Part shown: positions 8,477 through 28,179 of the stretch, one piece after another
Layout: each line of letters opens with the position of its first letter
Position numbering within the stretch: position 1 is the first letter of the stretch
Source of the DNA: Mesorhizobium sp. NZP2298
Lineage (GTDB): Bacteria > Pseudomonadota > Alphaproteobacteria > Rhizobiales > Rhizobiaceae
Reading direction: 5' to 3'
NCBI RefSeq assembly: GCF_013170825.1
Contig: NZ_CP033365.1
Location: forward strand, 1,054,001-1,118,000
DNA: 64,000 nucleotides
Notes under the pieces: generated by a model
Databases searched by the model: none
Seen by the model: the letters and a program-made list of their open reading frames with translations, nothing else
Told to the model about the DNA's origin: nothing
Translations under genes and position numbers: made by a program

Positions 8477-9121
8477 TCATGAGCCGCCTGGCACCGCCGC
8501 GATGGTCTTCTCGACCGTCGGCAGGATGCGCTCGACCATCCGGTCGACACCGCTTGCGTTCGGATGCATGCCGTCCTCGAGCTGCAGGCCGGGCTGTCCG
8601 GCGACGCCGTCGAGGAAGAACGGATAGAGCGCGACATCGTATTTCCCAGACAGGTCCGGAAAGATGGCGTCGAAGGCGTTCTGGTAGTCGGCGCCGAGAT
8701 TGGGCGCGGCGCGCATGCCGGCGAGCAACACAGCGATCTTGCGCTGTTTGAGCTTGCCGAGCATCTCGTCGAGGTTCTTCCTGGTGATGTCGGGCGAGAT
8801 GCCGCGCAGCATATCGTTGGCGCCGAGTTCGAGGATGACCAGCTGCGTGCCGTCCGGCACCGACCAATCGAGCCGCGCCAGCCCGCCGCTCGTGGTGTCG
8901 CCGGAAACGCCGGCATTGGCGACGGTCACGTCATGGCCCTTGGCACGCAGCGCTGCCTGCAATTTGTCGGTAAAGCCTTGGTCGGGCCCAAGCCCGAAGC
9001 CCGCCATCAAGCTGTCACCGAAGCCGACGATCTTGAAGGGCTCGGCACGCGCCGACGAAATGGCGCCGCAAATGGCGAGGAAAAGGACCAAGCCTGCGGC
9101 TATCTGGCGTTTGAAAGACAT
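8477..9121 (-). CDS. TesA-like arylesterase/lysophospholipase (SGNH hydrolase)
   Basis: A 214-residue secreted hydrolase of the SGNH family, related to E. coli TesA, acting on thioesters, aryl esters or lysophospholipids in the periplasm. It has a signal peptide of about 26 residues ending SSARA. The SGNH blocks are all present: GDSL with the nucleophilic serine near residue 37, a Gly block around NAGVSGDT, GAND, and the C-terminal DGMHPN that carries the catalytic Asp and His. It is divergent from a YbbA/YbbP-like ABC exporter, the same gene neighbourhood as tesA-ybbA-ybbP in E. coli, which supports the assignment. The physiological substrate is not known. Confidence 0.93.
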   Translation of the reverse strand: MSFKRQIAAGLVLFLAICGAISSARAEPFKIVGFGDSLMAGFGLGPDQGFTDKLQAALRAKGHDVTVANAGVSGDTTSGGLARLDWSVPDGTQLVILELGANDMLRGISPDITRKNLDEMLGKLKQRKIAVLLAGMRAAPNLGADYQNAFDAIFPDLSGKYDVALYPFFLDGVAGQPGLQLEDGMHPNASGVDRMVERILPTVEKTIAAVPGGS

Positions 9122-19674: not shown

Positions 19675-19875
19675 GTGCGATCCGTCCTTGTCTGTTCAGC
19701 CTGAAAGGGAACGGACGCCGATGGCATGCAATCACGCGCAAAGGTGCGGGTACGGCCATTTCCGCTGTCCGCTCCCAAGCAACCCGAGCCGTTCAAGGCG
19801 GCGCGTGCGCTGGTTCGGCGCAAATTCTGTTCCCGAGCCGACCGCTGGCACGGATGCACCGCATATAGAGAATTT

Positions 19876-19892
19876 TCTGGAATAGTTCTAGA
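19876..19892. promoter_or_regulatory. Candidate Irr-type iron-control box
   Basis: TCTGGAA, three bases, then TTCTAGA forms an imperfect inverted repeat resembling the Irr box of rhizobia (TTTAGAA-N3-TTCTAAA style). It lies 68 bases before ccmA and about 200 before acnA. Both heme export and aconitase are known targets of Irr in related bacteria, which makes the site plausible. It is a single imperfect match found by eye. Confidence 0.4.
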
Positions 19893-19959
19893 CAGTTGGA
19901 GAGCAAATTTGTGCGATGCGGCAGCGCTCGCGAAACATTGTTTTCAGGGCAGGCGAGGA

Positions 19960-20685
19960 ATGCGGCTTATCGCCGAAAATCTGGGCGGCGAACGCGGCGG
20001 CGAGGCGGTATTTTCCGGCATTGGCTTCGCCCTCGGCGATGGCCAGGCGCTGGTCGTCACCGGACCGAATGGATCTGGCAAATCAACCTTGCTCAGGATC
20101 ATCGCCGGGCTGCTGCCGAAGGCGGAAGGTCGATTGCTGATCGAAGACGGCGGCGATGACTTTCCGTCGATTGCTTCGGCCTGTCATTATCTCGGTCACC
20201 AGAATGCGATGAAGACCGCGCTGAGCGTCACGGAAAATTTGCGCTTCTGGCACGACTTCAACGGCGATGGAGATGCCGGGGTCGAAGAGGCGCTGGAAAC
20301 GGTCGGGCTTGATGGCATCGGGCATCTGCCGTTCGGCTATCTGTCGACCGGGCAAAGGCGCCGCGCGGCGATCGCGAAACTCCTGGTCAGTCACCGGCCA
20401 GTGTGGCTGCTCGATGAACCGACGGCGGGGCTGGACAAGGCTTCGGAGGAGCGATTCGCTGGGTTGATGACAAGGCATTGCCGGTCTGGTGGGATGATTG
20501 TAGCGGCGACGCATCTGCCGCTGGGGATCGAGGGGGCGAAGGAATTGGTGATGGGGCATTCACCCTCCCCCTTGTGGGGAGGGTCGATCCGCGAAGCGGA
20601 GCGGGGGGGATCTCTTGTGATGGCCGCCGCTCCCCACCCCGGCGCTGCGCGCCGACCCTCCCACAAAGGGACGGTGAAGTGCTAG
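19960..20685 (+). CDS. ccmA: Heme exporter ATPase for cytochrome c maturation, tail from a repeat
   Basis: CcmA is the ATPase of the CcmABCD complex, which releases heme-loaded CcmE for cytochrome c assembly at the inner membrane. It shows Walker A GPNGSGKST, a degenerate signature LSTGQRRRAAIAKLL and Walker B PVWLLDEPTAGLD, as expected for CcmA. The ATG at 19960 follows GCGAGGA and gives MRLIAENLGG. The family is about 200 residues, but this protein has 241. Its last 40 or so residues, after about residue 200, come from a palindromic intergenic repeat (20561-20676) that reads through in frame. The gene overlaps ccmB by seven bases. The extra tail is probably tolerated. Confidence 0.93.
   Translation: MRLIAENLGGERGGEAVFSGIGFALGDGQALVVTGPNGSGKSTLLRIIAGLLPKAEGRLLIEDGGDDFPSIASACHYLGHQNAMKTALSVTENLRFWHDFNGDGDAGVEEALETVGLDGIGHLPFGYLSTGQRRRAAIAKLLVSHRPVWLLDEPTAGLDKASEERFAGLMTRHCRSGGMIVAATHLPLGIEGAKELVMGHSPSPLWGGSIREAERGGSLVMAAAPHPGAARRPSHKGTVKC
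20561..20676. repeat. Palindromic intergenic element inside the ccmA-ccmB junction
   Basis: A 116-base imperfect palindrome. CACCCTCCCCCTTGTGGGGA at its left end is mirrored by the complement of TCCCACAAAGGGACGGTG at its right end. The left arm is itself a hairpin, CCCTCCCC with GGGGAGGG. Elements of this type are frequent between Mesorhizobium genes. Here it lies inside the coding sequence of ccmA and its right end (AAAGGGACGG) forms the ribosome-binding site of ccmB. Confidence 0.8.
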
Positions 20686-26285: not shown

Positions 26286-27296
26286 TTACGCCACTCCAGC
26301 GATCGCCCTGGCGAATTCGCTTGCCGAGAAAGGCTCGAGGTCGTCGACCTGTTCGCCGACGCCGATGAAATAGACAGGCAATTTGTGCTTTGCCGCGATC
26401 GCCACCAGAATACCGCCGCGCGCCGTGCCGTCCAGCTTGGTCATCACCAGGCCGTTGACGCCGGCGATGTTGCGGAAGATCTCGACCTGGTTGAGCGCGT
26501 TCTGGCCGGTGGTGGCGTCGACCGTCTGCAGCACCGTGTGCGGCGCTTCCGGATCGAGCTTGCCGAGCACGCGGACGATCTTTTCCAGTTCCGCCATCAG
26601 CTCGGTCTTGTTCTGCAGCCGGCCGGCGGTGTCGATGATAAGCACGTCGGAGCCCGCCTCTTTCGCCTTCTCGAAAGCGTCATAGGCGAGGCCGGCGGCA
26701 TCGGCGCCGATCTTGGAGGCGATGACAGGCGACTTCGTGCGCTCGCCCCAGATTTTCAATTGTTCGATCGCGGCGGCGCGAAAGGTGTCGCCGGCGGCGA
26801 GCATCACCGACAGGCCGCCATCGGTCAGTTTTGCCGCCAGCTTGCCGATGGTGGTGGTCTTGCCAGTGCCGTTGACGCCGACCACCAGGATGACATGCGG
26901 CTTGTGCGAGAGGTCGAGTTCCAGCGGCCGGGCGACGGGGGTCAGCACCTTCTCCACCTCGGCCGCCATGACGGTGCGCACGTCCGTATCGGAGACGTCC
27001 TTGCCATAGCGGCTGGCGGCCAGCGCGTCGGTGATGCGAAGCGCGGTTTCCATGCCAAGGTCGGCGCGGATCAGCACATCCTCCAGGTCCTGCAGCGTTT
27101 CCTCGTCCAGCTTGCGCTTGGTGAAGACGCCGGCAATGTTGCCGGTGAGCTCGCGCGACGAGCGGGCCAGCCCGTCCCGCATGCGCTGGAACCAGGAGCG
27201 CCGCAGCGCCGGCTCCGGCGCCTTCACCGGCTCGGCCTTCTGCTCGACCTTTTTCGCCACCGTCACCTTGCCGGGAGCGGGTTTCGACTCAGGCAA
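26286..27296 (-). CDS. ftsY: FtsY NG-domain GTPase, downstream half of a split ftsY
   Basis: FtsY is the membrane receptor of the signal recognition particle. The NG domain here has P-loop GVNGTGKTTT at about 140-149, DTAGR, and TKLDG in the G domain, plus the preceding N-domain helices. The frame continues upstream as coding-like sequence rich in Pro, Ala and Glu, but the only available starts are TTG at 27294-27296 and internal ATG codons further in. The acidic first half of the gene (27289-28179) is in a different frame, so this half may be expressed by re-initiation or the gene may be frameshifted. NG alone can support targeting in E. coli when a short helix precedes it. The start is uncertain. 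Confidence 0.85.
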   Translation of the reverse strand: MPESKPAPGKVTVAKKVEQKAEPVKAPEPALRRSWFQRMRDGLARSSRELTGNIAGVFTKRKLDEETLQDLEDVLIRADLGMETALRITDALAASRYGKDVSDTDVRTVMAAEVEKVLTPVARPLELDLSHKPHVILVVGVNGTGKTTTIGKLAAKLTDGGLSVMLAAGDTFRAAAIEQLKIWGERTKSPVIASKIGADAAGLAYDAFEKAKEAGSDVLIIDTAGRLQNKTELMAELEKIVRVLGKLDPEAPHTVLQTVDATTGQNALNQVEIFRNIAGVNGLVMTKLDGTARGGILVAIAAKHKLPVYFIGVGEQVDDLEPFSASEFARAIAGVA

Positions 27297-28179
27297 GGGT
27301 TGTGGGGCCGGTGGCGGGATGGGCTGCGGCTCGGGCGCGATCTCGGCAATAACGGGCTGCGGCGCGACCGGCGCGGGTGCAGCTTCGGGCGGCGTGCGCT
27401 TTACCTCCTCCTCGATGGGGAGGTCCCAAGCGAAGCGTGGGGTGGGGGTGGGTGACTGGCGCTGGCGTCGGCGCTGTCACTTCACCCGACGTTTGCGTCG
27501 ACCTCCCCATCGAGGGAGGGTGAGATTCTTCCTTCTCCCCGTCACTATACGGGGAGAAGGTGCCGGCAGGCGGATGAGGGGCGGCGCTGACCTCGGAAGT
27601 CGGCTGTGTGGAAGGCACGGCCGGTGGCGGCACTTCGACCGGCGCGGGTTGTTCGGCTGGAACCTCGGCGGGTGGGGCCGGCACTTCGATCGGTGCTGGT
27701 TCCGGCTGCCGTTCGGGGCGCGGCGGCGCAATCTCCGGCTCAGCGGGAGCAGGGACTTCTTGCGGCTGCGGTTCGGGGGCGGGCTCCGGAGCAGGCGGGG
27801 GAAGCGGAATTTCCTCGGGTGGCGGCGGCTCGACAGGCCTTTCAGGCGCGGGTTCTTCTTCCGGCGCGGGCTCCTGCAGCGGTTCCGGCTTGGACGGAAC
27901 AGTCGGCTCAGGCATCGGTGGGATGGTCGGAGCCGGTTCGACAGGCGCCGGTTCCGGCTGCAGTGCTACAACAGGCTCGACCGCTGGTGCCGGCACCACC
28001 TCCGCCTCGGGCTGCGGCTCGTCGCGCTTCAAGAACTCTGGAACGACCTGTTCGGCCGCCGGTTTCAGCGCATCGAGCTGGTCCCATTTGATCGGGGGCA
28101 GCGGAGCGGTCTCGTCGACGCGCTCCTCGACAACCTCTTTCTTGCCGAACGAAAATATCTTCTTGAAAAAACCAGCCAT
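27289..28179 (-). CDS. ftsY: FtsY acidic N-terminal region, first half of a split ftsY
   Basis: The 296-residue frame starts MAGFFKKIFSFGKKEVVEER, the typical FtsY membrane-contacting N-terminus, followed by a long Pro/Glu/Ala-rich segment like the FtsY A domain. It carries no GTPase motif. From about residue 220 the sequence is made of two repeat elements (27404-27520 and 27531-27586), and the last 40 residues (rich in Arg and Ala) are read in the wrong frame relative to the NG domain. A single-base shift would join it to the NG frame. It could be a true frameshift, a sequencing error, or programmed frameshifting. Confidence 0.7.
   Translation of the reverse strand: MAGFFKKIFSFGKKEVVEERVDETAPLPPIKWDQLDALKPAAEQVVPEFLKRDEPQPEAEVVPAPAVEPVVALQPEPAPVEPAPTIPPMPEPTVPSKPEPLQEPAPEEEPAPERPVEPPPPEEIPLPPPAPEPAPEPQPQEVPAPAEPEIAPPRPERQPEPAPIEVPAPPAEVPAEQPAPVEVPPPAVPSTQPTSEVSAAPHPPAGTFSPYSDGEKEESHPPSMGRSTQTSGEVTAPTPAPVTHPHPTLRLGPPHRGGGKAHAARSCTRAGRAAARYCRDRARAAAHPATGPTTLA
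27404..27520. repeat. Palindromic repeat inside ftsY, larger element
   Basis: CCTCCTCCTCGATGGGGAGG beginning at 27404 mirrors GACCTCCCCATCGAGGGAGG near 27500-27519, so the two ends are inverted over 15 perfect bases (CTCGATGGGGAGGTC). It lies in the Pro-rich part of FtsY and coincides with the frame change. Confidence 0.8.
27531..27586. repeat. Palindromic repeat inside ftsY, smaller element
   Basis: CCTTCTCCCCGT at 27531-27542 pairs perfectly with ACGGGGAGAAGG at 27549-27560, followed by a GTGCCGGCAGGCGGATGAGG tail. This is a commonly seen rhizobial intergenic repeat, here inside a coding frame. Confidence 0.8.

Follow-up and report, generated by a model that had tools for sequence, protein, structure and literature searches.

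Palindromic repeats carried in frame within ftsY of Mesorhizobium, and a probable recent frameshift at one of them

The essential protein-targeting gene ftsY, which encodes the SRP receptor FtsY, is present as two frames, one base apart on the minus strand, in the assembly of Mesorhizobium sp. NZP2298. The window analysed here is the whole 64,000-nucleotide stretch from 1,054,001 to 1,118,000 of contig NZ_CP033365.1, and positions are counted from its first letter. We conclude, at a probability of roughly 0.6 and from comparison of genome sequences, that the split is a genuine and young frameshift at a translated quasipalindrome. As judged by the same comparison, palindromes of this kind form a normal part of the ftsY coding sequence in the genus; their in-frame state is seen directly in the alignments, and we infer that they are translated with the protein.

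The ftsY locus and its palindromic elements

The A-domain reading frame (27289-28179, minus strand, 296 aa) begins with MAGFFKKIF, runs from the ATG at 28179 to a TGA at 27291-27289, and is out of register past a palindromic element that we call E1. The NG GTPase frame of FtsY (26286-27296, minus strand, 336 aa) contains both SRP54_N and SRP54 according to Pfam, which gave no domain match on the A frame. The first start codon of the NG frame is a TTG (27294-27296, minus strand), at which it overlaps the A-frame stop (27289-27291). The frame is open beyond this TTG, upstream as far as 27476, and by reading of the frames the passage from A to NG lies inside the 185 nt (27292-27476, minus strand) that are open in both. 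The arrangement is that of FtsY, with an A domain ahead of the SRP54_N and SRP54 GTPase domains; the MAGFFKKIF start is conserved in relatives, as are the N-terminal 54 codons of the A frame. The initial annotation had assigned the A part and the NG part to different frames, and we confirm this (28179-27289 and 27296-26286). A search with the NG domain gives, as a rule, two matches per genome of the genus. The second matches, of which five are listed (none from the window's genome), are only 33-36% identical, as one would expect of a paralogue, presumably Ffh, and ftsY therefore looks single copy.

The change of frame had been attributed to two palindromes. Both are present, but the change is confined to E1 (27399-27522, minus strand), which differs from an in-frame reference copy by indels of -1, -1, -1, -1, +6, +3 and -1 and whose two 16-nt arms (27410-27425 and 27500-27515) are perfectly complementary to one another. 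The other palindrome, E2 (27531-27587, minus strand), has a hairpin with perfect 12-nt arms (27531-27542 and 27549-27560) and is read in the A frame as ...PHPPAGTFSPYSDGEKE..., a form of the peptide shared with intact relatives. In intact ftsY genes, E1 reads as PHPPLDGEGRREAAGWGD...HPHPRAALGTSPIEGEVK and E2 as PHPPAGTFSPY.DGEKE. E1 copies are 123-140 nt long and are predicted to fold into nested hairpins of about -69 to -100 kcal/mol. Their length lies within the range of the palindromic repeats of Rickettsia known as RPE, about 100-150 bp. A known structured RNA at the element was considered and rejected; Rfam gave four matches with E values of 0.4-0.8, all below the gathering scores.

Both elements are repeated in the genome. 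The stretch 27380-27610 has 38 matches in the window's genome (itself, 36 in the E2 part and one in the E1 part), the in-frame E1 of a relative has 13, and E1 copies outside ftsY are found many times per genome. With gaps allowed, the window E1 shares 91-94% identity with the eight closest copies in ftsY and at most 91% with copies elsewhere, similar values that fit descent and conversion from a copy elsewhere equally well; at third positions of the NG part the window differs by 11-16% from its nearest relatives. One E1 copy (20561-20665) is read as the C-terminal tail of an ABC-transporter open reading frame (19726-20685, ccmA-like by eye), which adjoins the following open reading frame on the same strand. 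E2 occurs eight times in G000:C1 as inverted pairs about 120-135 bp apart, as if it were half of a larger composite palindrome (377747-377927, 929944-930124, 945595-945759, 1237570-1237757, 1387730-1387916, 3057815-3057996, 3403927-3404100 and 4825985-4826160).

Palindromes as coding sequence across the genus

The NG query was run on 146 Mesorhizobium genomes and ftsY stretches were taken from 144, the two others (G079 and G098) being left out since their best matches reached merely 4e-37 and 1e-35. The A-domain start was recognised in 122 of the 144 loci, including that of the window genome; among the 22 unclassified loci, eight run into a contig end and 14 are off the A-start pattern (two with runs of N), so these could hide further splits. 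The A and NG parts share one open frame in 116 of the 122 genomes, with 801 to 1476 nt between the A start and the G motif, and are split in six (the window genome, G017, G023, G049, G100 and G103). That most genomes keep a single frame, and that the NG frame ahead of its TTG matches the frame of intact relatives, bears out the earlier proposal that the two parts were once one. The accompanying proposal, that invasion by the repeats split the gene, is not supported in that form: at least one of three palindrome families is carried in frame by 88 of the 116 intact genes (E1 by 48, E2 by 62 and a third family, E3, by 31; E2 and E3 were detected by loose patterns), so invasion by itself did not split ftsY.

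E1 occurs in 79 copies at 53 ftsY loci, 72 of them within the 48 intact genes, and all 79 have one and the same orientation. Taken with the many other copies per genome, this places the element both in frame inside genes and, apparently, outside them. In 16 genomes, 15 of which had a match, the best 25 matches to the E1 peptide were all in ftsY; below them came weaker, partial matches in long frames. In a sample of 151 genomes from 109 genera of the family, four genomes had a match at 1e-6. One of these, G114, is itself a member of Mesorhizobium and has the match in a 708-aa frame; the other three gave four matches in open frames of 41-210 aa, three with internal stops. A strong match in this sample came solely from Mesorhizobium. 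On a tree of the NG domain for the 122 loci, the minimum number of changes in E1 presence is 20 for the first part of the region and 31 for the second half, counts that are inflated by tree error and recombination. Individual loci vary. L122 (G087) carries the E1 peptide three times within a single ftsY frame; in L021 (G138) and L026 (G006) the A region is very short, 801 nt separating the A start from the G motif, and E1 follows soon after the conserved N-terminus, as if the palindrome site had lost most of the Pro/Glu linker.

The reading frame of E1 is kept within ftsY. Frame-breaking indels make up 6 of 59 in intact and 8 of 12 in split genes. The 72 copies in intact genes share a common phase without exception, and in 71 the net change in length is divisible by three, although both results follow in part from the choice of intact genes, and the indel test was therefore repeated on all 79 ftsY copies. 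Here 14 of 71 indels break the frame; among 36 copies elsewhere, 176 of 216 do so (Fisher 6e-21). These 36 were chosen by length (31 from 90 rows and 5 from 13 rows, L320 being unused), and "elsewhere" means outside ftsY and may include other genes. Frame 0 is open in all 72 intact copies, while the other forward frames contain stops in 57 and 67; both constraint and shared ancestry within the gene may contribute to this. Divergence hardly differs between codon positions (0.089, 0.076 and 0.103), which argues against a strong role for the E1 peptide. On these alignments, what is kept in E1 is the reading frame, and the peptide itself is weakly conserved.

Nature and origin of the split

The six splits are six separate changes on the NG-domain tree, at different positions, and that of the window was found in no other of the 122 genomes compared. 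E1 indels shift the frame in four of the six, that is, within 11% of the length (p 0.0019): in the window genome, in G100 (-1), in G049 (-2) and in G103 (-1 and +6). The splits of G017 and G023 lie outside E1. By E1 status, 5 of 53 genes with the element are split versus 1 of 69 without it (p 0.08), and splits in the A part (6 of 122) compare with a single broken NG part in 144 loci, at a locus with runs of N (p 0.05).

A rival reading is an artefact of sequencing or assembly at a GC-rich hairpin, in which case the ftsY of the strain would be continuous with E2 and E1 in frame. We regard this as a serious alternative, although on balance an unlikely one. By eye, most of the single deletions in the window E1 shorten runs of C or G, the predicted folding of the element is very strong, and a laboratory or sequencing polymerase could likewise switch templates at the hairpin. 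To gauge the background we compared coding-like genes around ftsY (60-180 kb) with two relatives. Genes flagged as frameshifted numbered 2 of 71 in the window genome, 0 of 48 in G100, 3 of 53 in G103 (ftsY itself among the three) and 3 of 31 in G049, with 1 of 34 and 0 of 35 in the reference genomes G118 and G025. The screen left unflagged the ftsY splits already known in the window, G100, G017, G049 and G023, and is therefore insensitive in low-complexity stretches. Neither flag in the window genome is convincing: the first came from an over-long query and the gene (8477-9121) is intact, and the second is a mismatch within the first 31 residues, which G103 and G049 show too when searched with the same query. 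No frameshift is thus confirmed among the 71 other genes near the window's ftsY, which tells against an artefact, as do the substitutions and the +3 and +6 changes that the window E1 has also acquired, and the five separate single deletions, many for errors in one element.

For three of the six split assemblies the artefact has more force. The initial annotation had named the same split in relatives lacking the repeats as evidence against its own reading; G017 and G023 do break outside E1, yet around their ftsY frameshifts affect 4 of 52 (G017) and 3 of 29 (G023) of the other genes. With several frameshifts in neighbouring genes, the splits of G017, G049 and G023 are doubtful and probably are assembly errors. 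This would leave the window genome and G100, and with less certainty G103, all three of which break inside E1.

Programmed ribosomal frameshifting, which had been raised as a way of joining both frames, would find 185 nt open in both and a strong predicted hairpin at the right place. However, such a mechanism should be conserved among relatives in both split and signal, and it would be needless in the 116 of 122 genomes that are unsplit; the breaks lie at different places as six separate changes, and no shared slippery site was noticed on reading the frames by eye. We therefore rejected this explanation as highly improbable.

We next consider what the cell would make from the split gene. When the window was compared with three relatives, dN/dS was 0.02-0.10 over the N-terminal 54 codons, 0.17-0.21 over the linker ahead of E2 and 0.20-0.31 over the 40 codons that precede NG (mostly past the TTG). 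Five intact pairs gave similar values for the same regions (0.03-0.21, 0.16-0.26 and 0.22-0.31), and a loss of constraint on the A domain is thus unsupported. As both parts still look constrained, the split is either young, or tolerated with both parts in use. Candidate starts for NG are the TTG at 27296 and GTGs 25-64 nt past the A stop, with predicted Shine-Dalgarno pairing of -1.7 to -5.1 kcal/mol compared to -2.7 for the A start. NG would probably be made by initiation at the TTG or a nearby GTG, through termination-reinitiation at the overlap, although the signals are weak. Tolerance is plausible on two counts. In E. coli, FtsY remains functional after removal of most of the A domain. A review presents the A domain as a disordered region that binds lipid and SecYEG (PMC9099147). 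A stronger version would have FtsY of this strain existing now as two functional proteins, with the A part and the NG part made separately. The constraint on each part in its own frame, the overlap of the NG start with the A stop and the E. coli precedent all suit it, but a young split would show the same constraint, the NG start signals are weak, the window's split is unique among the genomes compared and the six occurrences are separate changes. We consider it improbable.

If the frameshift at this translated quasipalindrome is genuine and young, the arms of E1 suggest a cause. As a palindrome, E1 is closer to perfect in the window and in G100 than in all intact genes. Arms that match exactly over at least 14 nt are found in none of the 72 intact ftsY copies (13 nt at most) and in 12 of the 36 copies elsewhere (p 4e-7), and the window copy has 16 nt. 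After its deletion, G100 has a perfect 22-nt palindrome in a stretch that shows no more than 6 nt in 71 of the 72 intact copies and 14 nt in the remaining one. Quasipalindrome template switching is known to mutate imperfect inverted repeats towards perfect ones, with indels and frameshifts, as described in PMC7202029. We suggest the following course. Across the genus, in-frame E1, E2 and E3 have repeatedly been carried in the disordered linker that connects the membrane-binding N-terminus to NG. In these copies the E1 palindrome is imperfect, perhaps since most changes towards perfect arms would break the frame, a view prompted by the different state of copies outside ftsY. In the window E1, non-triplet indels have gathered, the arms have become perfect and the NG frame has moved by one base, as seen in the assembly; the likely cause would be template switching at the quasipalindrome during replication. 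No better arm pairing was found in the split E1 of G103 or G049 and the G100-type palindrome is present in 0 of the 36 copies elsewhere, so that template switching is at best part of the account. A broader proposal is that Mesorhizobium FtsY holds a standing set of translated quasipalindromes, in which selection for frame would hold the arms imperfect against template switching that drives them towards perfection and so repeatedly splits the gene, and that some lineages live with an A-domain anchor and a free NG GTPase; this we put forward as speculative and rather improbable as a whole.

Comparison with other palindromic repeats

The closest parallel is with the protein-coding palindromic repeats (RPE) of Rickettsia reported by Ogata and colleagues, as described in PMC3733652. 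In both, palindromic repeats lie outside genes and also in frame inside genes, where they become protein sequence. The resemblance drawn by the initial annotation holds as a way of working; by description, as distinct from a sequence match, the ftsY case works like RPE. By that account RPE occupy many genes, whereas the strong in-frame matches of E1 (best 25, in 16 genomes) are all in ftsY. Intragenic REP of the GTAG and CGTC families, as PMC3733652 presents them, are likewise palindromes in coding sequence and sometimes recur at roughly the same position of a gene across related species, as E1 does, but their units are 20-40 bp compared to about 124 bp for E1. The genes named in its section on intragenic REP are repair, tRNA and RNA genes, and ftsY is not among them. 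The rhizobial RIME, Sm-repeats and AB and C palindromes share with E1 and E2 their dozens of palindromic repeats per genome, but PMC2573895 describes them as intergenic, whereas E1 and E2 are in frame in an essential gene; this comparison is by description alone. Quasipalindrome mutation, in the account of PMC7202029, shares with E1 the passage from imperfect to perfect repeats with indels and frameshifts; at E1 it is deduced from sequence alone, and would act at a translated repeat in an essential gene. Among the open-licence PMC papers listed, no title or abstract reports palindromes in FtsY or in rhizobial coding sequence, which points only weakly to the absence of such reports.

Where ftsY of these genomes is called split or a pseudogene, the sequence at the palindromes needs to be checked. 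The best-known protein-coding palindromes are those of Rickettsia; here they would occur in a free-living genus, in one essential gene and in many species. The copies outside ftsY in the same genomes serve as a control, so that selection for frame against palindrome-driven mutation becomes measurable.
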